A stretch of DNA of 64,000 nucleotides, taken from positions 186,001-250,000 of the forward strand of contig JASGMJ010000001.1 of NCBI GenBank assembly GCA_030156535.1, read 5' to 3'. The position numbers were made by a program, and so were the translations under genes. This DNA comes from Candidatus Sumerlaeota bacterium. Lineage in GTDB: Bacteria > Sumerlaeota > Sumerlaeia > SLMS01 > JAHLLQ01. Position 1 is the stretch's first letter. Every line of letters starts with the position of its first letter. Below, piece by piece: positions 30,256 through 52,221 of the stretch. Below the pieces are notes generated by a model. It was not told the origin of the DNA. It searched no databases and saw nothing but the letters and a program-made list of their open reading frames with translations.

Positions 30256-31887
30256 CTACTCCTCGCCATACTGTCTCAGGCGCCTCCAGAGCGTTGTCTC
30301 GCCGATCCCAAGAATGCGGGCGGCCTTGCGGCGGTTGCCATCCGTTGAACGCAGGACCGTCAGGATGTGATCGCGTTCGACGTCGGCCAGAGGGCGGTCC
30401 TCGTTGGAGCGCGGGAAGGCTATTGTGGCCGGTTCGTGGAGGTGGGAGGGCAGGTGGTCGGGATGGATGGTGCCGCTGCGCGTGAGGAGCAGCGCACGCT
30501 CGAGCGTGTTGGCGAGTTCGCGGATGTTGCCGGGCCACGGATAGGCGAAGAGAAGATCGTGGCATTTGGGGTCGAGCCGCGGATTGGCAATCGAATGACG
30601 ATGAGCGATTTCGTTCAGCAGCAGCCGCGCGAGGGGAAGCAGGTCCTCGTGGCGTTCGCGCAGCGGCGGCAGTTCGAGTTCCACGACGGCAAGCCGGTAG
30701 AAAAGATCGTCGCGGAACTTCCCCGTCCGAATGTCCGTGGCTAGACGGCGGTTCGTCGCGGAGAGCACGCGGATGTCGATCTTGCGGGGCTTGTTGCCGC
30801 CGACGGGAATGATCTCCTTTTCCTGGAGAGCGCGCAGGAGCTTGACCTGCATGGAGGGCGGCATTTCGCCGACCTCGTCGAGAAACAACGTCCCGCCCGA
30901 GGCCTGCTCGAACAGCCCCAGACGGTCGTGCACGGCACCGGTGAAGGCACCGGCGCGATGCCCAAAAAGCTCGCTCTCCAGCAACGTTTCGGGAAGTGAC
31001 CCGCAGTTGATGGCCTGAAACGGGGCCGCGGCGCGGCGGGACTGGCGGTGAATGTGGCGAGCCAGAACCTCCTTTCCGGTGCCGCTCTCCCCCGTGATCA
31101 GAATCGCAGTGTCGTAGGGAGCAACGCGGTCGGCAACATCGAGAATGCGCTGGAATGCCGGGTTGCGCGTTTCGATGAACGGAGTGCCCGGTGCGTTGGG
31201 GCGGCGGAGGCGTTCAAGGCGCCGGCGCTGGCGATCGATCTCGTCCTGCTGGCGTTTGAGTTCGCCCGTGAGGTTCTGGATCTTGCCGATGATGTCGTCG
31301 GATTGGTAGAAAGGAAGGTGGGGCGTGATTGCCTCGCCCCAGGAAGCCTCATCGCGCCCCGTGGCACGGCACACGCGGCATCCGGGTTGGCAGCGGCATT
31401 GGCTCTCGATGAAGTAGACCGGTGTTCCGAGACAAAAGGACGCGTAGCCCGAAGCATAAGCGGTAAGCATCCAACAGATCGGCTCTTCACTGGAGCCGAG
31501 TTCGAGCTGGTGTTCCTCGGCCTCACCCGAACCGCGCCAGGTGATCTCCATTTCAAAGCGTTTCGTCTCTGGCTCCCACGTCATGGAGCGAATATGCGTG
31601 CGCACCACGCCGACCAACGCATGCACGCGTGGTCCCGCCAACAACCATTCGTCGAGCGAATCCCAGTTGTAGACGCGCTTCATCGCGGCGGCATCCGCCT
31701 GCCCCGAATAGTAGCCGTAGCGCGTAAGCAGGCGGCGCGTTTGCTCGAGCCCAATCGAACGCACCAGGTCACCGCGCAAGTGGGCAAAGGCATGAAGGGA
31801 GTGGATGACGAGACGGCGGCCATGAAGGGAGAGCTGGCCGTCGGAGAAGGAAACGAGTTCGTCGAGAGTGAGGTCTTCCGCGCGCAT
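30256..31887 (-). CDS. Sigma-54 activator with XylR-N and V4R sensor domains
   Basis: This 543-residue NtrC-type enhancer-binding protein has an N-terminal XylR_N segment (about 1-95) followed by a V4R small-molecule-binding domain (about 100-210, with Cys cluster QCRCQPGCRVC). A coiled-coil linker comes next. The AAA+ domain has Walker A GESGTGKE, the sigma-54-contact GAFTGA loop and Walker B TLFLDEVGEMP; the C-terminus is a Fis-type helix-turn-helix (RRKAARILGIGETTLWRRL). In XylR/DmpR relatives this sensor pair binds aromatic effectors. It is divergent from the M20/acetokinase operon, its likely target. ATG 31887 starts directly before XylR_N. Confidence 0.93.
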   Translation of the reverse strand: MRAEDLTLDELVSFSDGQLSLHGRRLVIHSLHAFAHLRGDLVRSIGLEQTRRLLTRYGYYSGQADAAAMKRVYNWDSLDEWLLAGPRVHALVGVVRTHIRSMTWEPETKRFEMEITWRGSGEAEEHQLELGSSEEPICWMLTAYASGYASFCLGTPVYFIESQCRCQPGCRVCRATGRDEASWGEAITPHLPFYQSDDIIGKIQNLTGELKRQQDEIDRQRRRLERLRRPNAPGTPFIETRNPAFQRILDVADRVAPYDTAILITGESGTGKEVLARHIHRQSRRAAAPFQAINCGSLPETLLESELFGHRAGAFTGAVHDRLGLFEQASGGTLFLDEVGEMPPSMQVKLLRALQEKEIIPVGGNKPRKIDIRVLSATNRRLATDIRTGKFRDDLFYRLAVVELELPPLRERHEDLLPLARLLLNEIAHRHSIANPRLDPKCHDLLFAYPWPGNIRELANTLERALLLTRSGTIHPDHLPSHLHEPATIAFPRSNEDRPLADVERDHILTVLRSTDGNRRKAARILGIGETTLWRRLRQYGEE

Positions 31888-31893
31888 GGCAAG

Positions 31894-31931
31894 TCTTTCA
31901 TTATGAAAGAGGAGTCTTTCAGAATGAAAGA
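31894..31931. promoter_or_regulatory. Two 17-bp palindromes at the sigma-54 activator start
   Basis: TCTTTCA-N3-TGAAAGA occurs at 31894-31910 and again at 31915-31931. All seven arm bases are identical in both copies; only the central three bases differ (TTA and GAA). The centres are 21 bp apart, two helical turns, so a dimeric protein could bind both on one DNA face. They lie 7-44 bp upstream of the activator ATG and 136-173 bp before the divergent M20 start, fitting an autoregulatory or shared operator. Confidence 0.7.
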
Positions 31932-32066
31932 ACCAAGAGGTGGCGTTTGTCAATTCCTCTCTTGTGTAATGTTGTTGAATATGGGGTTGTCGATTTCTTC
32001 GCTGCTGAGCCCGGTTCTGGCGATAGGAGAGGTGCGTCAAGGCGCATCCAATCAGGAGAGAGCACC

Positions 32067-33296
32067 ATGTATTCACTTCTACGCCGGGCAGCCAATGCCC
32101 TCGCTCAGGACACCATGGAATTTACCCGCGACCTGCTGCGCACGCCCAGCCCCAGCCTCGGGGAAAAGGGAGTTGCCGCGCTCGTCGAGCAGAAGATGAA
32201 AGAGTATGGCTATAACGAGGTCTTTAGCGACGAGTGCGGCAACGTTGTTGGCATTCTTCATGGCCGTGATGACGAGCCGACGATCGTTCTGAACTCGCAC
32301 ATGGACACCGTGAACGCGGATTGTTCAGGCGAGTGGACCGAGAAGCCCTACGAAGCGACACTGCGCGACGGCAAGCTGTACGGGCTTGGCGCGGCGGACT
32401 GCAAGGGTGGCTTGGCGGCGCAGGTCGCTGCCGGTGCGATTCTTCGCCGCAGTCTTTTGCCTCTGCGCGGCAATCTCGTTGTCGCCGCCACGGTGGCTGA
32501 GGAGAATGGGGCCAGCGTCGGCACGCGCGCTCTGCTTGCCAAGACGCTTCCGTCGCTGGACCTGCGCCCGCAGGCCGTGATCCTGGGCGAGCCCACGAGT
32601 CTTGGTCTTTACTACGGACATGATGGATGGGTGGAGCTTGAACTGGTCGTCGAGGGCGAGGAAAAGCAGGCCGTGGAGCAGGCGGCGCGCACGATCTACG
32701 ACGGATTGCTGCAGGAAGAAGTGCAGGCAACCATGCACGCACCGAACCAGGAGATGCAGGTCCGCGAGCCCGTGTACTCGGGTGGAGCCGACGCGCATCA
32801 GGCTCGCTTGCGGGTGCATCGCCGCCTTGGTGCACCGCTGCAACTGGAGCATGTGCGCGGTCAGCTTCATCGTCACGCCCAGCTCGCAGCGAGCTCGGGA
32901 AGCAAACTGGTCATCAACGTCGGTGTCACCGAAGAAGCCCAGACCCTGTACAATGGGACGCAGGCGTTTGTGCAGCGCGTAACTGACGCCTGGCAGACCG
33001 ATCCCTTCGATCGCAGCTTCGAGCGCGCCCGCCAGTGCCTCGGCAGTGCCGGTTGCCCTGTGCGTCCCGGCAAGTGGCGCCTCAGCAGGCTCGGCATGGG
33101 AACGGCCGGCGGCGTCATCACTCGCGAGTTTGGAATTCCGGTCTTCGGCTACGGCCCTGGCGACGAAGAGCAGGCGCACCAGCCCAACGAGTACGTGGAC
33201 ACGAACATGCTTGCGGAGGCCGCCTACGGCACCGCCGCCATCGTTCACGGCTTGATCGGCGTGCCGGTGCTTGGCTGGACCGCGGACGAAATCTGA
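32067..33296 (+). CDS. M20-family metallohydrolase with an altered central domain
   Basis: This 409-residue protein has all the zinc-site landmarks of the ArgE/DapE/CPG2 family: SHMDTVN, GAADCKGG, the catalytic AEEN pair, LGEPTS, and near the C-terminus GYGPGDEEQAHQPNEYVD supplying the last His. Such enzymes cleave N-acyl or peptide amide bonds. The central lid domain lacks the usual G-x-S-A-H-x-S-x-P signature: after VELELVVEGE the chain goes straight into a helix (KQAVEQAARTIYDGLL). AGGAGAG sits seven bases before the ATG. It heads an operon with acetate kinase, so acetate release by a deacetylase is plausible but unproven. Confidence 0.85.
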   Translation: MYSLLRRAANALAQDTMEFTRDLLRTPSPSLGEKGVAALVEQKMKEYGYNEVFSDECGNVVGILHGRDDEPTIVLNSHMDTVNADCSGEWTEKPYEATLRDGKLYGLGAADCKGGLAAQVAAGAILRRSLLPLRGNLVVAATVAEENGASVGTRALLAKTLPSLDLRPQAVILGEPTSLGLYYGHDGWVELELVVEGEEKQAVEQAARTIYDGLLQEEVQATMHAPNQEMQVREPVYSGGADAHQARLRVHRRLGAPLQLEHVRGQLHRHAQLAASSGSKLVINVGVTEEAQTLYNGTQAFVQRVTDAWQTDPFDRSFERARQCLGSAGCPVRPGKWRLSRLGMGTAGGVITREFGIPVFGYGPGDEEQAHQPNEYVDTNMLAEAAYGTAAIVHGLIGVPVLGWTADEI

Positions 33297-33333
33297 GCGC
33301 GCTTCCTCGCGTGTTCCGAAGCATGGACGGACG

Positions 33334-33420
33334 ATGAGCAAACGGGAAATGATTGAAACCGAACAGACCAATCCCGCCCGCCGGAAGGCGGAGCCGGATG
33401 CAACGGGAGGCGTTACGTGA
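33334..33420 (+). CDS. Possible 28-residue leader peptide before ackA
   Basis: A short frame (MSKREMIETEQTNPARR...) ends ACGTGA, its TGA overlapping the GTG start of ackA (GTGA). A small CCGCC-GGAA-GGCGG hairpin with a GNRA loop lies inside it, upstream of the ackA GGGAGG. It could couple translation to ackA, but its own start has no good ribosome binding site. Confidence 0.25.
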   Translation: MSKREMIETEQTNPARRKAEPDATGGVT

Positions 33421-34631
33421 AAGTTCTTGTCTTCAACTGTGGCAGTTCGTCATTGAAGTTCCGATTGTACGAGATGCCAGGCGAGAAAGAACGCCTGGCG
33501 GGAGAGGCCCAGCGCGTCGGTACCAAGACCGCAGAGCCCCCGCGCATCGTTTATCGCGTGGACGGCGTCGAGAAGGTCCACCAGGCCGACATGCCGTCGC
33601 AGGAAGCGGCGTTGCGCGAAGTGATGGGGTTGCTCGACAGCCTCGATGGAATGACGCCCGATTTGCTGGGCCATCGCATGGTGCATGGCGGCCAGCGTTT
33701 CACGACTCCGGCCGCGAAAGTGGACGCCAAGGCCCTGGTGGACTTGGATGCCGTGGCCGGTTTGGCTCCGATTCACAATCCACCGGCAATCCGCGTGGTG
33801 CGTGCCTGCCACGATTCTTTCCCTGGCTTGCCGCAGTTCCTGGTTTTTGACACGGCGTATCACTCCACGATTCCCGATTACGCGGCGAACTATGCACTGC
33901 CGAAGTACATGCGGGAGGACATGGGGCTGCGCAAGTACGGCTTCCACGGAACAAGCCATCAGTTCGTGGCCCAGGAAGCCGCCACGATGCTTGGCAAGCC
34001 GATGGAGGAGTTCAACGCGGTGAGTTGCCATCTGGGAAGCGGTGGCGCGAGCCTGTGCGCGATCATCAATGGCAAGTCGGTGGATAACACGATGGGGTAC
34101 TCGCCTCTGCAAGGGCTCGTGATGAGCACGCGCAGCGGCGACATGGACCCCGCGGTCGTGCTGTCACTCGTATCAACACGGGGCGGCGATGCAACGGCAG
34201 TCGAGCAGTATCTGAACAAGAAGGCCGGCGTGCTGGGGTTGTCGGGTGTTTCTTCGGACATTCGCGACGTGATCGTTCATTCGCGGGAGGAAACCGAGGA
34301 GGGCGAGCGCGCGAAGCTGGCGCTCCACGTCTACCTCTGGCGGCTTCGCAAATACCTTGGGGCCTACCTCACTGTCGTGGGGCGGGCGGATGCCGTTCTG
34401 TTCACCGACACGATTGGCGAACTCGTTCCCTATGTACGCGGCGCAGTTTGCGAGGGGATGGAGGCGTTTGGTATCGCCGCCGATAGCGGGTTGAACGAAG
34501 CGGCCACGGGCGACGCCCTGCCCGCGGATTTCGCCTCGGCGGCCAGCAGCGTTCACCTTCTCGCCATTCGTACCAACGAAGAACTCTCGATTGCACGGCA
34601 GGCCTTCGCCCTGGCGGCGAAGGCAGCTTGA
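33417..34631 (+). CDS. ackA: Acetate kinase
   Basis: This 404-residue ASKHA kinase interconverts acetate plus ATP with acetyl phosphate plus ADP. All key motifs are intact: N-terminal FNCGSSSLKF, HRMVHGG with the substrate Arg, FDTAYH, GFHGTSH, CHLGSGGAS, STRSGDMDP with the second essential Arg, and RTNEELSIARQ with the metal-binding Glu. Length is normal. GGGAGG precedes a GTG start. No phosphotransacetylase is encoded here, so the acetyl-phosphate source lies elsewhere or the acyl substrate differs (propionate or similar is possible). Confidence 0.95.
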   Translation: MKVLVFNCGSSSLKFRLYEMPGEKERLAGEAQRVGTKTAEPPRIVYRVDGVEKVHQADMPSQEAALREVMGLLDSLDGMTPDLLGHRMVHGGQRFTTPAAKVDAKALVDLDAVAGLAPIHNPPAIRVVRACHDSFPGLPQFLVFDTAYHSTIPDYAANYALPKYMREDMGLRKYGFHGTSHQFVAQEAATMLGKPMEEFNAVSCHLGSGGASLCAIINGKSVDNTMGYSPLQGLVMSTRSGDMDPAVVLSLVSTRGGDATAVEQYLNKKAGVLGLSGVSSDIRDVIVHSREETEEGERAKLALHVYLWRLRKYLGAYLTVVGRADAVLFTDTIGELVPYVRGAVCEGMEAFGIAADSGLNEAATGDALPADFASAASSVHLLAIRTNEELSIARQAFALAAKAA

Positions 34632-34664
34632 ACAACACAACGACCAAGGCAGAGGGAAACAATC

Positions 34665-35741
34665 ATGCTGACTGTTCTCGTATGCGTGCCGAGTCTCACT
34701 CGCAGTACGCTGGAAGTGTTTGAAGTTCCCGAGGCCCCCGGGGCCGTGGGATCGCGTCGCATTTTCGATGCTGGCGTTCTGGAGACGCCGGCCGAGCTCG
34801 ATGCCGCCATCAAGGGGCTGACGGGCAAAGTGCCTGGTATCGACCTGGGTGTGTTCTATGGCCCCTTTGGAGGGACGGAGGTGTGCAGCCCTGTCCTGGT
34901 TGACGAAAGCGTCTTGAAGCGTGTGGAGGAATTGACGCCGCGCTCGCCGATGACGCTGCCTGCGGTGAGCGGCGCGATGAAGGTGTTCGCCGAACACAAT
35001 GTCGGCGTGCCCGCCGTGTTTGACTACGGTTCGGGTTTCTTTGCCCGCCTGCCGCGCCGCGAACGTTTCTACGCCATCGATCCCGAAGCCGCCCGCAAGC
35101 TCGGCCTCGAACGCACGGGCTTCCACGGCTTGTTCCATGCTGCTGCCGTGGCGGGCTTGCGCCAGGACGCCACGGGAGACACGCGCCCCCCGATTCGGAC
35201 GTTGTCGATCTGCCTGGAGCCCCGCCCCGAGGCCGCCGCAGTTCTCGATGACCGCCCGCTGATGGTGACGGGTGGAGCGACCCCGCTCGAAGGGCTGCCG
35301 GGTCAGACAACGTGCGGCGAGATCGATCCCGGCATGGTGCTGATTCTGGCCCAGGAACAGCACTGGAGCCCCGAACAGATCGCCGACTCGCTGACGCGCG
35401 AGAGCGGCCTTCTTGGCCTTGTCGGCCGTCCCACGACATTGAGCGAGTTGTTTGCGTCGAAGGAACCGTCGGCGAATCTCGGCCGCGAGATGATGCTCTA
35501 CCGCCTGCTGCTGGCGACGGGAACGGCCATCAGTGCACTGGGTGGTCTGGACCGCATCGTGTTCAGTGGCCGCCATGCGGCGCTTGGCGAGGAGATCGGC
35601 GCTTGGCTGTGCGAGCGCCTCGCACGCCTGCCAGGCGACGTGAAGCCTCGCGTCGAGCTGCTCGAGCGTGGCTTCATGGAGTTGCTTCTTGAAGACGCGC
35701 TCAGGTTCCGCCTTGAGATGTTTCCCACGGTGCCGATCTAG
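34665..35741 (+). CDS. Degenerate acetokinase-family paralogue
   Basis: This 358-residue protein follows ackA by 33 bp and keeps the acetokinase backbone: VTGGATPLEGLPG, GEIDPGM, TGFHGLFH at 151-158 and the FD pair at 119-120. The catalytic residues are largely gone. N-x-G-S-S-S-x-K is replaced by VPSLTRST, HR-x-VHGG by FYGPFGG (substrate Arg lost), the FDTAYH stretch by FDYGSG, the CHLGSGG phosphate loop by CLEPRPE and TRSGD by TTCGE (second Arg lost). It is probably not an acetate kinase. It may be a regulatory or structural partner of AckA, or an enzyme of altered chemistry. Confidence 0.8.
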   Translation: MLTVLVCVPSLTRSTLEVFEVPEAPGAVGSRRIFDAGVLETPAELDAAIKGLTGKVPGIDLGVFYGPFGGTEVCSPVLVDESVLKRVEELTPRSPMTLPAVSGAMKVFAEHNVGVPAVFDYGSGFFARLPRRERFYAIDPEAARKLGLERTGFHGLFHAAAVAGLRQDATGDTRPPIRTLSICLEPRPEAAAVLDDRPLMVTGGATPLEGLPGQTTCGEIDPGMVLILAQEQHWSPEQIADSLTRESGLLGLVGRPTTLSELFASKEPSANLGREMMLYRLLLATGTAISALGGLDRIVFSGRHAALGEEIGAWLCERLARLPGDVKPRVELLERGFMELLLEDALRFRLEMFPTVPI

Positions 35742-44892: not shown

Positions 44893-47800
44893 TCATGACT
44901 TCGGTGTCAGATTTGGAGAATCGCCATCCTCGTCCTCGAACCAGATGGCGGATTCAAGGGCTTTCATGGCGTCTCGTTTGTTTACGGCCTGCTTGAGCCG
45001 GACGCGGGAACGCTGATCGGCCGGGCGTGCCTTGAGAATGCGCTCGCAGACGGCGATGCAGGGATTGATTTCGCCTTTCTGGAAAAAGTGTTCGCTGGCG
45101 GTGACGAGTTCCTCGATGGCCTCGTCCTGACTGCCGAGTTGTTCGAGGAGATCGGCGAGCTTGACGCGGACACTGGCGTTCTGGGGATTGATGCCGAGGA
45201 TGTCGCGATAGTTCTGGATCACCTGTTCCAGCGCCTGACGCTCTTCCTCTTCATCCATGCTTTCCATTTCGTCGGCAAGGAAGCTGGCGGCCGTGGCGGC
45301 GTGCCCGCGAGGCGTGCCGGTTCCCGTGCCATCGGGACGGCGCTCGGGGGACTTGGCGCCTGCTGCCGGCTTGGGGAATTTCGTTTCGTGGGGGCGTTCC
45401 GTCGGAGGCGCGTCAATGCGAGGCGGAGCAACGCGCTGGCCCTTGCGGCGCGCCTGGGTCTCCGAGAGACGGTCGCGGGCCTTCTTGTTCTCCGGATCGA
45501 GCGACATCACCTTGCTGAAGAGCTTGATGCCATCGTCCACGCGGTCGGCGGCGATATAGAGATCGGCGAGGACAAGGTAGTCGTCGCACAGATCGATTTC
45601 GGTGCCAAGGCGCAGGTAGGCTTCGATGTACTTTTCGCGGGCCGGAATGCTCCAGGGATTGAGGCGAATCACCATGCTGATGTAGTGCAGGGCCTCGTTC
45701 GTGTCGCCGCGGCGTGCGAGGATATCGGAATAATCAAGGTACTCCTGTTGGAGGTCCTTCTCCTCGCCGTATCCGAGTCGCGCCTCGAAGAGAGAGCGCC
45801 ACGCGCGGTCGCAATCGGAGTCGAGCTTGATGACCTGGCGGAATTCCTTTTCGGCAAGGTCGGCAAGCCCACGCTCCATGTAGGCATCGGCAAGCAGAAG
45901 CTGCTGCTCGACGGCTTTGGATATCGCTTCCGTGGCGGTAAGGGCTTCGACGAGTTCCCGCCGCATTTCGAGATTCTGGGGGTCGAGCTCGACAGCCATG
46001 CGCAGCACGTCGGCGCGCCTCGTGTCGTTCTTGTTCTCGCGGTAGAGCTTGAGGGCCTGCTCGATTTCAATCAGCGCCATGCCACGCGCATTGCGGGCCT
46101 TGTGAACCTGCGCCTGGGCGAGATGGAAATCGGCGTTTCCCTTTCCGATGCGCTCGACCTTTGCGAGCGCATCGCCGGCTTCGCGGAATGCCCCGAGATC
46201 GAGAAGAATCTGAACGAGTTGCTGATTCTGGGCGAGGGCGTCTTCATTTTGCTCGGCCGCGACGAGGGCGTCGATCAAGGCCGTGCGAATCTGCGGGTCT
46301 GCGGGATCGAGTTCGACGGCGGTCCTAAGACGCTCGATCGCTTCATCATGGGAGCCCCTCTCGCGAAGAAGACGGGCGAGTTCGACGAGATTGGGAATCC
46401 GGCGGCGTGGTGTTCTGGTGTCGCTGAGCGCGTCGTCGAGCGCGGTGCGTGCAATCATGTCGCCGGGAACGGTCTCGATCAGTTGCTCCAGCACGCGTGC
46501 CGCCATTTCACTGTCGCCCTGCTGGCGGTGGATTTGGGCAAGACGGGCCAGCTCTTCGCCCGCTTCCCTGGTCTTGCCGAGGCGCTGGTAAATGTTCGCG
46601 AGTGCCTGTGCGTGCCCGGGAACATTCGGTTCCATGGCACTCAGTGCCTCGTAGACCTCCTGTGCCTTCTCGAAGGCTTCGGCTTCGCGCAGCGTTTCTC
46701 CGACTTCGAGAAGCGCCTCGCACGCCTCGGCAATCTCACCGAGACCCTTGCACGCGGTCGCGAGGATTTCGCGTGCTTCGAGATCGCGTGGCTTGATTTC
46801 GAGTGTCTTGCGGCACCAGTGCTTGGCCTGATCGAACCGTCCGGCGCCGGCATGGAGTTCCGCAATCGCCGTGTATTCCTGGGCTGCCGCCTCGGGAATA
46901 TCGTTTTCAACGAAGAGTTGGGCGATGCGCGAGCGGAACTTCTCGTTGGTGGATTCGGTCTCGTAGATCCCGCGAAGAAGGTTGCTGCTTTCCTCGATCA
47001 TGCCGCGGGAAAGTTGCGTACGAACGACTGCGGTGAATTCGTCGAGTGCCTCGTCGATGCGGCCTGCACCGTACAGTTCGTGAGCGACGCGGGTACGCAT
47101 GTCGAGGTCTTCGGGGACGAGCGACGCGGCGAGGCGCATGGTGGCTGCCGCCTCACCGGGATCGCCCGCGTCGCGATAGCGCTGGGCCGCATCGGCATAC
47201 GCGGCCGCAGCCCCTTGCTGGTCGCCGGCAGTCTCCAGGAGACGCGCGCGTGCCAGTGCAATGTCCGTGGACTCAGGAAGAAGAGCCGTGGCCTTTTCGA
47301 GAGCACTCTGGGCAGCGGCAATGTCGCCGCCATCGCCCGCGTGGCTTGCAATCCAGAGAAACTCCTCAGCCGCGTTCTGTTTGTCTCCCTGTGTGGCAAG
47401 GAGTTCGGCTAGGAGTTCGTGGGGCCGGAAGCTTGCCGGATCGAGTTCGATTGCCTTGCGCAGGGCGGCGATTGCCTCGTGCGGGGAGTCAGATGCCAGC
47501 GATTCGCCGAGATTGGCATAATCGATCGCTGCTTCGCGGGTGTCGCCGAGTTTTTCGCGCGCCGTGGCGAGTTGCGTGCGGTTGGCAGTGCGCGAGGGAT
47601 CGAGCCGCACCAGTGCTTCGAGGATACGGGTGTGTTCGCGCGGGAAGGCCTCCACACGGGGAAGGGCTTTCTCGAGTTCCTGGATGGCTTGTGTCGTCTT
47701 GCCGAGGTCTTCAAAGAGTATGGCCCGGAGTTCCAGTACTTCGACATCGGCAGTGGCGCTGGCCATGATGATGTCGGTGACGCGGAGGGCATTGGCAGAT

Positions 47801-50800
47801 TCGCCGTCAGCGCGATAGAGCTTGGCGGACTGAATGAGATGGGTGAAGGCCTCCGTTTCGTTGCCGAGCAGGAAGTAGACCCTGCCGGATGCCTCGTGGG
47901 CCTTGGGGCCAAGGGGCTGGAGCTTTTCAAGCCGAGCAAGAACTTCGCGCGCCTTGCTGGTGTCGCCCGTGTCAGCAACGGCTTCCGCAGCGTCGATGTA
48001 GACGCCAAGGGCACGAGCCTTCTTGCCATCGCGCACGAAATAGGACGCGAGAAGAAGACGCGCTTCGATATTCGTGGGATCTGCCTGGACAATCCCCTCG
48101 CAAACGGAGATCGCATCGGCGAATGCACCGGCCTTCTCGAAGACCGAGGCAAGACGGAGCGAACATGCTGTGACGAGATCACTGCGCTCTTCCGCGAGAG
48201 CGAGGGCTATTTGCTCGCGAAGAAGAACGGGACTTTCGGGATCGAGCTCGAGTGCCTTCTCGTAGTAGTCGATCGCCGTCTTGTTGTCCTTGCGTGCAAT
48301 AGCACTCTTGGCCAGCAGGGCGAACTCATCGCGGGCAGCGCTGATTTCGCCTTCATCGCACAACATGGTGGCAAGGCGCTGGCGAATGTCCTCGGCCTCG
48401 GGATCAAGTTCGAGAAGCTGGCGGAGTACCTCGATGAGCTCGCGCGCGGTGTGGTCGCCGTCATCAAGGGCAAGAAGCTCGCGCAGATACTTGACGGCGT
48501 CCGGCTTGCGGCTCTCGTCGTGGGCGATCAGGCTCGCAAGTGCTTGGCGTGCCTCGCGATTATCGCTGTCGATGTCGAGAAGTTCCTTCCAGGTGGCTTC
48601 GGCTTCGGCCTCCTGGTCTTCTTCGGTCTGCCGCCTTGCGATGCGCGCGAGGGTCTGGACGGCGTCGCGGTCCTTCGCGGCGGCAAGCTGGGCACGGACG
48701 AGTTCGCGCAGCAGCACGATGCTGCCACTGAAGCGGGCGATTCCCCATTCGAGCAGTTCGAGAGCGCAGTCGGGGTCGGGCTTCTGAAGCTGGGCGGTAG
48801 CGGCCTGATGAATCGTTTCAATGGCCTCTTCGCTCTGGCTTCTGGAGGCGAGAAGTTCGGCGATGGCGACCTGATGGTCCACGGAAAGGGGGACGAGTTG
48901 AGCGGCGCGGGCGCAAAGCTCGCGGCCCTTGGCGGCGTCGTTGCGCTCGAAGCTGCGGCGGGCAAGAGCAAGCGCCTGCTGGGCTGCGGATTCGCGGGCT
49001 CCAATGGCGAGGAGGAAGTCGAGGTACTCGCTGCCGATCCCGATGTCATCGGGGGCAAGCTGAAGAAGGCGGTCGTAGATCGGTTTTGCTTCGAGGGGGT
49101 CGGAGCCGTTGGCAATGATGCGGGCAACGCGGGCGTATTCACGTCCGGCCTCTTCGGTCATGCCGAGTTGTTCGAGGACTTCGGCGTGCGCAAACCCGAT
49201 GTCGATGTTGTCAGGGACGAGTTGGCTGGCGCGTTCGAGATAAGTGCGTGCCTCGTCGAGGTCCTCCGTTTCGAGAGCTTCCTTGGCGAGCTTCAGGAGC
49301 TCCGTGCCACCCTTGGATGGCTGGCCGTTCCGGTTGTGGAGTTCGACGAGCAGCAGGCGTGCCCGCTTGTCATTGGCGTCGAGGGAGGCGAGATGACGGA
49401 GCAGGCGCTCGGCAGCCGGAAACGCCTCCAGCTCGATGCGGGCTTCGGCGATCAACAGCCCGTGGGTGATGGCATCCGCGGGACGCCCGAGGGCCTCGCA
49501 AAGCTCGGCAAGGCGCGTGCGAAGTTCCGTGTCGGAAGGATCAAGTTCGAGCCCGAACTCGCAGATGGAGGCTCTGAGCGTTTGCTCGGCATCGTTGGTG
49601 CGCATGTCGAGGAACGCGCGCACCCCTTCGATGGCGCGCTGCTTGTGCTCGTGATTGGCCAGCAGGCGATAGAGATTCCGCAGGAACTCCCACTCCGCGA
49701 TGCGCTCGCAACGTTCCACGAGCTCAAGGGCGCGCGTTGGCTGCTTGGCGAGAAGCTGCCCCTCGACGCACGTGTGAAACTCTTCGAGCGCGTTGGCAGT
49801 CTGCCCGGCGGCTTCGAGCATCAGGGCGCGCTTCTCACGCAAGTCGAGCCGGCCGGGTTCGAGGACAAGCGCGCGCTGAAGTGACTCAGCGGCCCGGCGG
49901 TGGTCCTTCGCCTCTTGGAGACGCAGGGCGAGCTTGATCCAGAGGTCAAGGGCGGCAGCGGTATCGCCCCTCCCAATCAGGAGTTCGGAAATCCTCCCGG
50001 CAATCGCCATGTCGCTGGGCATCAATTCATGGAGCTTGCGCAGCTCGGCGAGACAGTCGTCGATGCGGTCCTTTTCCTGATACCATTCCGCGAGGCCGAG
50101 AACTTCCTCGCGCAGTTTGACGTTCTGGCCCGTGCGGGTGAAGAGAGCGACAAGCGCCTGGCGGGGTTTCTCGTTGTCGTCGCGGAGTTCAGCCACTTTG
50201 CGATAGCTGATCTCGGCGTTGATGGTGTCGCCGGCTTCTTCGGCCAGCGTCGCCGCCTGCTCGTAGTGATCCGCCGCAGCGAGAACGTCGCCCTTTTTCT
50301 CGAGTGCTTCCGCGAGTTTCATGCGGATGGAAGCGTCGGTGGGGTCGAGTTCGAGCGCCCGGTTTGCTGCCCGCAGAAAGATGGCTGGGTTGTCATCTTC
50401 GGTGCGTTTCACAACAACCCGATAAGCCTCGAGTGCCTCGCTCTTCTTCCCTTCGCGATGGCAAAGATCGGCGTAAAGAAGCCGGGCGGGAACGTCTTTG
50501 GGACGCTCCTCGACGAGTGGGAGAAGCACCTTGGAATCGAGTTCGATGGAGGCGTCCTCGGGGAGGGCCTCGGCCATGGCGTCGAGTTCGTGAAGCGCCT
50601 CGGCGGTCTTGCCCAGCGCGAGGAAGGCGCGAAGCCGCAGAACCTGAAGAGGAGCATGGGAAGGATCCGCCTGGAGGCCACGGCGGCAAAACTCCAGTGC
50701 CTGTTCGGGGTCCTTGCGGTCGAGCCACGCGGCTGCCGCATCGTGCCATGTGCTGATGGCGTCCTGGACGCGGTCGGCCTGGAGATAGCAATCGGCGATC

Positions 50801-52221
50801 AGATTTCGGAGCGATTCGTCGGCAGGGGAGAGCTCGAGCAGGCGCGCGATGAGAGCGAGAGCTTCGTCTTCCTCTTTTCTTATCAGGAAGCAGCGCAGTG
50901 CTTCGAGGAATTCCGGAGAGGCCATGGCCACATCGCCTGTGGCAAGCAGGGCGTCGGCGACAAAGAGATGATGGGCGGGATTATCCGGTTCGAGTTCGCG
51001 GGCTTTTGCCGCTTCTTCGATCGCCTGATCTTCGAGTCCGCTTTCAAGAAGCGACCTGGCGATGGCGAGGCGCTCGGTGGCTTCCTCGCGACGCATTCCC
51101 TGGCGGGCAAAGAGCGACGCCAGGCCCTCATGCGCGGAGACGCTGCCCGCGTCGGATTCGAGAATGCGGCGGAAGTAGGTTTCGGCTTCGGCAAACTTGC
51201 CCTGTGCGGCCAACTCCGTCCCGATGGCGGCGAGGAGGGAACCCGCGTCCACGGAGCGCCCGGCCTTCTCGTACAGAGCCGCGAGTGCTTCGCGCCGGGC
51301 GATGTCGCCCGGATGAAGACGGACCAGCGTTTCGTGGATTTCAATGCTGAGTTCGGGGTCCTCGTCCCCCGCGATTTCGGCCGCTTTTTCGTACTCGGTG
51401 AGAGCCGCCTTTGTCTGGCGGGCTGCCTCCAGTGCCCGGGCATGGCGCAGGCGCAGGCGATAGTCGGCTTCGATGGCCTCCTTGAGGCGCTCGAAGAGGG
51501 GCACATTGAGGGCGGGTTGGTCGCGCTTCTCGCGCAGCTCGATGACCTTCAAGAGACATTCCTGCTGCTGGGCGGCGTCTTCGACGGCGTCGGCCAGTTC
51601 CAGCAGTGCCTGCTCATTGTCCGGATCGGCGCGCAAGGCCTCCTCGCGGAGAATGCGTTCGGCTTCGGAGCGGTCGTCCTTCTTGCGTGCGAGGCGGGCT
51701 GCGGCGGTGAAGTGCCCTGCTGCCTCGGCGGCATTGCCTCCCTCTTCGGCAAGGCGCCCGCTGAGCAGAGCGACGGAGACGCTCTCGGGGTCGAGTTCGG
51801 CGGCGCGTCCGATGGATTCGCGGGCGGCCGCAAGATCGCCTTCTTCGAGGGCTTGGCGGGCATTGTCGAGATGCTCGCCCGTCGCGCGGCCACGCATCCC
51901 CTCGTCAACCTCCAGGCCGCACAGGCGCGCCGCCTCGAAGGCCGCGTCCAGGCCTTGCAGGCCCAGGTGCAGTCCCACCAGTTCGACGAGGGTGATCTCG
52001 CGGCTGGCTTCGCAGGACGCCACCATGCACTTGCAGGTGTTCTTCTTGGGCTGCACGAGCAGCGTCGAGAAGCGGTCGTCCTTGTGGATCATGCATGGCG
52101 TCTTCAGCGTTCCGCCCAGGACCACCATTTTGTCCGTGCGGAACCCGATCGCCTCGATGAGGCGGCGAGCATCAAGTTGCTGATTTATTGCCTGAACAGG
52201 ATCTTTTTCTTCGGCTGTCAT
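44893..52221 (-). CDS. Giant CHC2-zinc-finger/TPR protein (2442 residues)
   Basis: Residues 1-110 resemble the DnaG-type CHC2 zinc-binding module: Cys43-x2-His46, then Cys63/Cys65/Cys70 and the following helices (ITLVELVGLHLGLQGLDAAFEAARLCGLEV). The polymerase part of primase is absent. From about residue 115 to 2400 the chain is almost entirely TPR helices with recurrent LxPxNxxxRxxLAxLxxxxGxxxEA patterns, several dozen units in all. A low-complexity Pro/Arg/Lys linker lies near residues 2255-2310. There is no signal peptide or membrane segment, so it is cytoplasmic. A scaffold role is the obvious reading; nucleic-acid binding by the finger is inference. Confidence 0.85.
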   Translation of the reverse strand: MTAEEKDPVQAINQQLDARRLIEAIGFRTDKMVVLGGTLKTPCMIHKDDRFSTLLVQPKKNTCKCMVASCEASREITLVELVGLHLGLQGLDAAFEAARLCGLEVDEGMRGRATGEHLDNARQALEEGDLAAARESIGRAAELDPESVSVALLSGRLAEEGGNAAEAAGHFTAAARLARKKDDRSEAERILREEALRADPDNEQALLELADAVEDAAQQQECLLKVIELREKRDQPALNVPLFERLKEAIEADYRLRLRHARALEAARQTKAALTEYEKAAEIAGDEDPELSIEIHETLVRLHPGDIARREALAALYEKAGRSVDAGSLLAAIGTELAAQGKFAEAETYFRRILESDAGSVSAHEGLASLFARQGMRREEATERLAIARSLLESGLEDQAIEEAAKARELEPDNPAHHLFVADALLATGDVAMASPEFLEALRCFLIRKEEDEALALIARLLELSPADESLRNLIADCYLQADRVQDAISTWHDAAAAWLDRKDPEQALEFCRRGLQADPSHAPLQVLRLRAFLALGKTAEALHELDAMAEALPEDASIELDSKVLLPLVEERPKDVPARLLYADLCHREGKKSEALEAYRVVVKRTEDDNPAIFLRAANRALELDPTDASIRMKLAEALEKKGDVLAAADHYEQAATLAEEAGDTINAEISYRKVAELRDDNEKPRQALVALFTRTGQNVKLREEVLGLAEWYQEKDRIDDCLAELRKLHELMPSDMAIAGRISELLIGRGDTAAALDLWIKLALRLQEAKDHRRAAESLQRALVLEPGRLDLREKRALMLEAAGQTANALEEFHTCVEGQLLAKQPTRALELVERCERIAEWEFLRNLYRLLANHEHKQRAIEGVRAFLDMRTNDAEQTLRASICEFGLELDPSDTELRTRLAELCEALGRPADAITHGLLIAEARIELEAFPAAERLLRHLASLDANDKRARLLLVELHNRNGQPSKGGTELLKLAKEALETEDLDEARTYLERASQLVPDNIDIGFAHAEVLEQLGMTEEAGREYARVARIIANGSDPLEAKPIYDRLLQLAPDDIGIGSEYLDFLLAIGARESAAQQALALARRSFERNDAAKGRELCARAAQLVPLSVDHQVAIAELLASRSQSEEAIETIHQAATAQLQKPDPDCALELLEWGIARFSGSIVLLRELVRAQLAAAKDRDAVQTLARIARRQTEEDQEAEAEATWKELLDIDSDNREARQALASLIAHDESRKPDAVKYLRELLALDDGDHTARELIEVLRQLLELDPEAEDIRQRLATMLCDEGEISAARDEFALLAKSAIARKDNKTAIDYYEKALELDPESPVLLREQIALALAEERSDLVTACSLRLASVFEKAGAFADAISVCEGIVQADPTNIEARLLLASYFVRDGKKARALGVYIDAAEAVADTGDTSKAREVLARLEKLQPLGPKAHEASGRVYFLLGNETEAFTHLIQSAKLYRADGESANALRVTDIIMASATADVEVLELRAILFEDLGKTTQAIQELEKALPRVEAFPREHTRILEALVRLDPSRTANRTQLATAREKLGDTREAAIDYANLGESLASDSPHEAIAALRKAIELDPASFRPHELLAELLATQGDKQNAAEEFLWIASHAGDGGDIAAAQSALEKATALLPESTDIALARARLLETAGDQQGAAAAYADAAQRYRDAGDPGEAAATMRLAASLVPEDLDMRTRVAHELYGAGRIDEALDEFTAVVRTQLSRGMIEESSNLLRGIYETESTNEKFRSRIAQLFVENDIPEAAAQEYTAIAELHAGAGRFDQAKHWCRKTLEIKPRDLEAREILATACKGLGEIAEACEALLEVGETLREAEAFEKAQEVYEALSAMEPNVPGHAQALANIYQRLGKTREAGEELARLAQIHRQQGDSEMAARVLEQLIETVPGDMIARTALDDALSDTRTPRRRIPNLVELARLLRERGSHDEAIERLRTAVELDPADPQIRTALIDALVAAEQNEDALAQNQQLVQILLDLGAFREAGDALAKVERIGKGNADFHLAQAQVHKARNARGMALIEIEQALKLYRENKNDTRRADVLRMAVELDPQNLEMRRELVEALTATEAISKAVEQQLLLADAYMERGLADLAEKEFRQVIKLDSDCDRAWRSLFEARLGYGEEKDLQQEYLDYSDILARRGDTNEALHYISMVIRLNPWSIPAREKYIEAYLRLGTEIDLCDDYLVLADLYIAADRVDDGIKLFSKVMSLDPENKKARDRLSETQARRKGQRVAPPRIDAPPTERPHETKFPKPAAGAKSPERRPDGTGTGTPRGHAATAASFLADEMESMDEEEERQALEQVIQNYRDILGINPQNASVRVKLADLLEQLGSQDEAIEELVTASEHFFQKGEINPCIAVCERILKARPADQRSRVRLKQAVNKRDAMKALESAIWFEDEDGDSPNLTPKS

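Follow-up and report, generated by a model that had tools for sequence, protein, structure and literature searches.

A conserved operon with an Entamoeba-type acetate-kinase-family enzyme and its catalytically dead paralogue suggests an undescribed two-subunit enzyme

What might a bacterium do with an acetate-kinase-family gene that is followed by a dead version of the same enzyme and lies beside a divergent sigma-54 activator? In this study, we analyzed such a locus in a Candidatus Sumerlaeota genome. The window, a stretch of 64,000 nucleotides (contig C1:186001–250000 of a 4.3-Mb assembly), contains a divergent pair of transcription units at 30256–35741.

A divergent activator and a three-gene operon

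The plus strand encodes an M20-family hydrolase resembling YgeY (32067–33296; Pfam Peptidase_M20, 1e-27; NCBIfam YgeY, 193 bits), an acetate-kinase-family enzyme designated AckI (33417–34631; TIGR00016, 364 bits), and a catalytically dead acetate kinase paralogue designated Psi (34665–35741; Pfam Acetate_kinase, 3e-27). The minus strand encodes the activator (30256–31887). A sequence-only reading of this DNA had described a divergent XylR/V4R-type sigma-54 activator with an operon of M20, AckA, and pseudo-AckA genes, and this layout was confirmed. M20 and AckI are separated by 120 bp (33297–33416) in the window, and the two genes almost touch in several other units. Downstream of the unit, the opposite strand carries a dihydroorotate-dehydrogenase-like gene and pyruvate:ferredoxin oxidoreductase, neither of which is beside units L034 and L105, the loci with annotated neighbours. 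Elsewhere in the window, a 2442-residue open frame is located at 44893–52221 on the minus strand.

The activator starts at ATG 31887, as judged by alignment with homologues, and is 49–51% identical to the divergent regulators of L034 and L035. All domains of the XylR/DmpR/MobR architecture were detected, namely XylR_N (3e-23), V4R, the sigma-54 AAA+ domain (Sigma54_activat, 1e-68), and a Fis-type helix-turn-helix (HTH_8, 1e-14); the V4R match is weak, under the gathering score, in the window regulator and over it in the L105 regulator. Between the activator and M20 lie two perfect palindromes (31896–31929, no strand assigned): TTTCATTATGAAA at 31896–31908 and, 21 bp after it, TTTCAGAATGAAA at 31917–31929. 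The TTTCANNNTGAAA motif is conserved before M20 in homologous units, and two such palindromes spaced 19–23 bp apart are present in eight of the ten units read, compared with a shuffling expectation of 0.03. The pair occurs at a single place in the whole window genome and at a single place in a second genome (G023), and the reversed control gave 0. Because the paired palindrome is unique in the genome and kept in the units, the activator looks like a dedicated regulator of this operon. A –24/–12 type match with at most two mismatches is located 50–93 bp upstream of the M20 start in nine of the ten units read; in the window, a good match was not found (31930–32066) despite the perfect activator palindromes. 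Paired upstream palindromes and, in most units, candidate –24/–12 promoters are reminiscent of XylR, DmpR, and MobR. However, the activator differs from MobR (357 bits versus a cut-off of 999), and these relatives go with aromatic catabolism, whereas the activator described here adjoins an M20/kinase operon.

The M20–AckI–Psi order is kept in 15 loci, which belong to Sumerlaeota and to two or more further groups at phylum level. The divergent regulator is visible in 14 of them, and the remaining locus, L071, starts at a contig edge. A search of 61 genomes gave Psi matches, at 45% and 40% identity, in two genomes from another family of the same class, both Sumerlaeota (BRC1), in which all four genes have the order and orientation seen in the window; on comparison of the units, identities are 46–58% for the regulator, M20, and kinase, and 37–38% for Psi. 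In a contig scan, a three-member Psi alignment used as a profile retrieved four loci, and a single Psi sequence as the query retrieved none. The profile scan additionally gave L041 in a Phycisphaerae-labelled MAG and L043 in an Omnitrophota-labelled MAG. The unit is present in 6 of 14 genomes of the phylum-level group of L043 and in 5 of 44 genomes of a further group. L041 is a 4.2-kb contig, and one of 392 genomes of that phylum has the unit; since this copy may be mis-binned, it was left out as evidence of spread. Within the class of the window genome, 3 of 39 genomes carry the unit, and Psi had no match in the four other genomes of its family. This patchy occurrence, with absence from the nearest relatives, suggests that the unit was acquired by horizontal transfer.

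The same gene order in 15 loci of several phyla is more than a chance arrangement. The inter-unit distances of AckI, Psi, M20, and the regulator correlate at 0.69–0.89 (0.36–0.71 with near-copies removed), and those of Psi correlate with M20 and AckI at r = 0.89 and 0.87, respectively; the four genes co-evolve. On the sequence evidence, the unit is real, being conserved, co-regulated in appearance, and co-evolving. These 15 loci bear out the earlier reading of the genes as one unit that holds an AckA/pseudo-AckA pair, and they show it to be conserved and controlled by a regulator of its own. Where the unit occurs, the paralogue is neither lost nor scattered, being in position in 15 of 15 cases; the closest relatives of the window genome are without it (0 of 4 family genomes). 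The statement that no described system has this gene set also stood, as a published description of the M20/AckI/Psi/regulator set was not found in open-licence papers.

The kinase, its dead paralogue, and their pairing

Residues of AckI and Psi, numbered according to the Methanosarcina acetate kinase, were tabulated for ten of the M20-containing (type I) units. The acyl-side residues N7, R91, H123, D148, H180, R241, and E384 are kept in AckI of the window and of the nine other units; Arg285 is Ser in three AckI proteins, and the other acyl-site residues are unvarying. In the nucleotide site, the PHOSPHATE2 motif of the window AckI is CHLGSGGAS (N211→S and a Gly insertion) versus CHLGNGxS in canonical enzymes, and its ADENOSINE motif is FTDTIGE (Asp, G331→T, and N335→L) versus FTxGIGEN. 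The extra Gly and the Asp are present in 15 of 15 type I units. This combination has been reported only for the Pi/PPi acetate kinase of Entamoeba and for four sequences from Anaerolineaceae, and the authors did not settle whether bacterial enzymes of this kind work with ATP, with PPi, or with neither of the two (PMC5517563). The four Anaerolineaceae entries are WP_075061087.1, WP_075074878.1, WP_062279690.1, and WP_062422928.1. The "intact acetate kinase" of the sequence-only reading is thus intact on its acyl side but carries a nucleotide site like that of the Entamoeba PPi kinase.

In a phylogenetic tree that included the Entamoeba sequence taken from the PDB alignment (4h0o), this protein forms one clade with AckI and AckII, the kinase of a second operon type described below, against 28 other enzymes (99/98), and it pairs with AckII at 100/99. 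By motif and tree position, AckI belongs to the clade of the Entamoeba Pi/PPi acetate kinase and is not an ordinary acetate kinase. Its PDB matches indicate that it is overall most similar to the Methanosarcina and Thermotoga ATP enzymes, not to the Entamoeba enzyme. AckI resembles the E. histolytica enzyme and its Anaerolineaceae homologues in the extra Gly, the Asp, and the replaced Asn211. It differs in having a dead partner, which is not described for those proteins, and in its location within a regulated operon with M20. Moreover, Gln323–Met324, the proposed ATP block in the Entamoeba enzyme, is Thr–Ile in type I and Asp–Ile in type II. The ATP-dependent acetate/propionate kinases AckA, TdcD, and PduW share the fold and every acyl-side catalytic residue with AckI, whereas AckI has other nucleotide-site motifs, a downstream dead paralogue, and no pta linkage.

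Psi retains the fold and has lost the active site. The AlphaFold model is an acetate kinase fold (pLDDT 88, pTM 0.88), and its best PDB matches are acetate kinases (TMq about 0.8). Aligned with ATP-type enzymes, the window Psi has N7→V, S10→L, S12→R, R91→Y, H123→T, and D148→G; the N211 loop CHLGNG is replaced by ICLEPRP, R241 by T, and D283/R285 by T/S, so that only H180/H184 remain. The phosphate loop, N7, and R241 are lost in all ten type I Psi proteins tabulated, and H180 is mostly kept. The residue table and the model agree with the claim that the paralogue keeps the fold and lost the Asn/Ser motif, the arginines, and the phosphate loop, and no alignment with the intact active-site residues of a known kinase subfamily was found. 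The Psi proteins are monophyletic at 100/100, with the window copy on the longest branch. They have conserved sequences of their own across phyla (TPLEGLPG..TCGE.D, GFHG.FH, and FSG.Y). The reading frame is open in all loci, and dN/dS values of 0.16–0.25 for close pairs indicate purifying selection.

Across all loci read, a dead paralogue follows 22 of 22 kinases with the signature motifs and none of the 58 other genes of the acetate kinase family; owing to the shared ancestry of the kinases, the counts are not statistically independent. In a 386-genome sample, motifs were read in the best 30 loci, and weaker signature kinases may exist beyond these. The 22 comprise 15 type I, 5 type II, and 1 type III loci plus one script count that groups identical sequences, with L041, which the script missed owing to an ORF overlap, counted by eye; the listed loci alone give 21 of 21. 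Type II consists of AckII, PsiII, and a FolE2-like protein, without M20, tightly packed in five loci (L039:5760–8858, L036:847–3927, L106:6793–9818, L122:5073–8171, and L123:5124–8225). AckII has the motifs CHLGTGGSS and FTDDIG, and the Entamoeba enzyme is its top hit in the PDB (365 bits, with 308 for the runner-up). Of the bacterial proteins seen here, AckII is the one most closely related to the Entamoeba PPi acetate kinase. The FolE2-like protein is without the Cys, His, and Glu metal ligands of FolE2. Type III (L107:6077–10269) consists of an HTH-cupin protein, a degenerate M20, a signature kinase, and a dead paralogue. Its M20 relative lost the Asp, Glu–Glu, and His ligands and kept the C-terminal FGWxxDEI motif.

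The M20 hydrolase and the housekeeping pta-ackA pair

An alignment of 13 M20 proteins indicated that the two-metal ligands and the catalytic Glu are kept in the window M20. The lid-domain His is lost in every M20 member of the units, an NPFxVED-like sequence replacing the His motif. The second metal-site Glu is replaced in L072 and in both M20 copies of L073, and the metal-site Glu changes seen in some M20 proteins are to Gln, Asn, or Lys. L073:4066–6668 is a tandem M20 duplicate, the second copy of which reads AEKDG in place of the metal-site Glu pair motif and lost the conserved C-terminus. The closest curated M20 family is YgeY, which belongs to a purine/uric acid degradation cluster and cleaves a ureido group (PMC12507026). 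However, the unit's M20 falls below the cut-off of the YgeY model (321 bits), is without the lid His, and is accompanied by no other gene of the YgeY pathway.

Phosphotransacetylase is absent from the unit. In the window genome, phosphotransacetylase and a canonical acetate kinase are adjacent on another contig (C21:15585–17827), apart from the unit. The proposal that the AckA/pseudo-AckA pair handles the energy of an acyl group that has been freed is unsupported: the product of M20 hydrolysis is a free acid, with no energy conserved, and the genome already contains a pta-ackA pair. Two readings were rejected on these grounds, namely energy capture through the hydrolysis by M20 and, in view of the separate pair, a plain pta-ackA function.

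A proposed two-subunit acyl kinase

The gene set suggests an undescribed two-subunit enzyme. In our main reading, to which we give roughly an even chance (about 0.5), the unit is a small-molecule-induced enzyme set around an acyl kinase composed of AckI and Psi, probably Pi/PPi-linked, with M20 as a partner. A small-molecule effector would act on the V4R/sigma-54 activator to induce M20–AckI–Psi expression. We infer that AckI and Psi form an obligate heteromer, with AckI as the catalytic subunit and Psi as a structural or allosteric one, a division of roles known from other enzymes with dead paralogues; the main argument is that the kinase–Psi pairing is constant across different contexts. The phosphoryl donor or acceptor of AckI may be PPi/Pi rather than ATP/ADP, as the nucleotide-site motifs hint. 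More speculatively, M20 might act on an inducer-related compound of the amide or ureido type, and AckI–Psi might interconvert the released carboxylate and its acyl phosphate. The activity of M20 is itself uncertain, because no member has the lid His and some have also lost a metal-site Glu. An AlphaFold model of a read-through AckI–Psi fusion was of low confidence (pTM 0.48, with only two sequences aligned for the AckI half) and weighs on neither side. TsaD–TsaB in t6A synthesis (PMC9654439) is a known case in which a catalytic ASKHA protein is partnered by a degenerate paralogue from the ASKHA superfamily; the chemistry and family differ, and the likeness to the putative AckI–Psi complex is one of principle. 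The Entamoeba enzyme is functional although no dead partner is known for it, which counts against the heteromer.

Psi might instead stand alone as a binding or sensor protein whose co-transcription with the kinase is incidental; it could, for instance, carry the acyl compound or sense it allosterically and act on M20. Its own conserved sequence and its co-variation with M20, as strong as that with AckI, would fit such a role. We nevertheless regard it as unlikely: type II Psi follows the same kind of kinase where there is no M20, so the constant partner is the kinase, and the normally dimeric state of the acetate kinase family also counts against it. That Psi is a decaying duplicate, a pseudogene in progress within an ordinary operon, is hardly credible. 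Among the enzymes, Psi evolves most rapidly, and the window copy has the longest branch, but its dN/dS and its residues invariant across phyla rule out decay, as do its open frames, its presence in every unit, and its monophyly.

Other explanations concern the catalysts. AckI could be an ATP/GTP acetate/propionate kinase with a modified nucleotide loop, in a catabolic module that feeds the M20-released acid to the housekeeping phosphotransacetylase. This is possible, if rather doubtful. Every acyl-side residue of AckI is intact, its overall similarity is to the Methanosarcina and Thermotoga ATP enzymes, and pta is present in the genome; moreover, altering Asn211 or Gly331 singly in the Methanosarcina enzyme lowered its activity but left it able to use ATP (PMC4390882). 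On the other hand, the combined Gly and Asp are reported only for Entamoeba-type enzymes (PMC5517563), the AckI clade excludes the sampled ATP enzymes, and such a module leaves the obligatory dead twin unexplained. It is quite improbable that all three enzymes have been retired as catalysts into a sensing or scaffold complex, with M20 becoming non-catalytic like Psi. The loss of the lid His in all type I M20 proteins, the altered metal-site Glu in some, and the missing ligands of the L107 M20 and the type II FolE2-like protein point in this direction, but the acyl site of AckI is kept in the ten tabulated type I members, only Arg285 varying, and most M20 proteins keep their metal ligands.

The two-subunit acyl kinase reading bears on the Entamoeba Pi/PPi acetate kinase, which the literature describes as the sole known example and whose role and acetyl phosphate source are open questions (PMC5517563, PMC9983610). 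The bacterial relatives seen here, each accompanied by a dead paralogue in a conserved operon, offer testable hints on substrate, partner, and origin. A bolder version, which we would bet against, posits a bacterial class of PPi-linked acyl kinases that work only as heteromers with a dead twin, in at least two operon types (with M20 or the FolE2-like protein), from which the solitary Entamoeba enzyme descended. The unit could also serve as a simple model for how an enzyme may come to depend on an inactive twin. Family models label these bacterial proteins as plain acetate/propionate kinases, a label by which metabolic reconstructions of these uncultivated phyla would be misled.

Two further members of the acetate kinase family were observed. 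L048:203–1405 encodes a degenerate acetate-kinase-like protein (D148→G, phosphate-loop His lost, and no signature motifs) in a gene series that also includes a 2-hydroxyacid dehydrogenase and an FGGY-like kinase, both named by eye. L046:4996–8028 is a 1010-residue open frame containing an acetate kinase domain.
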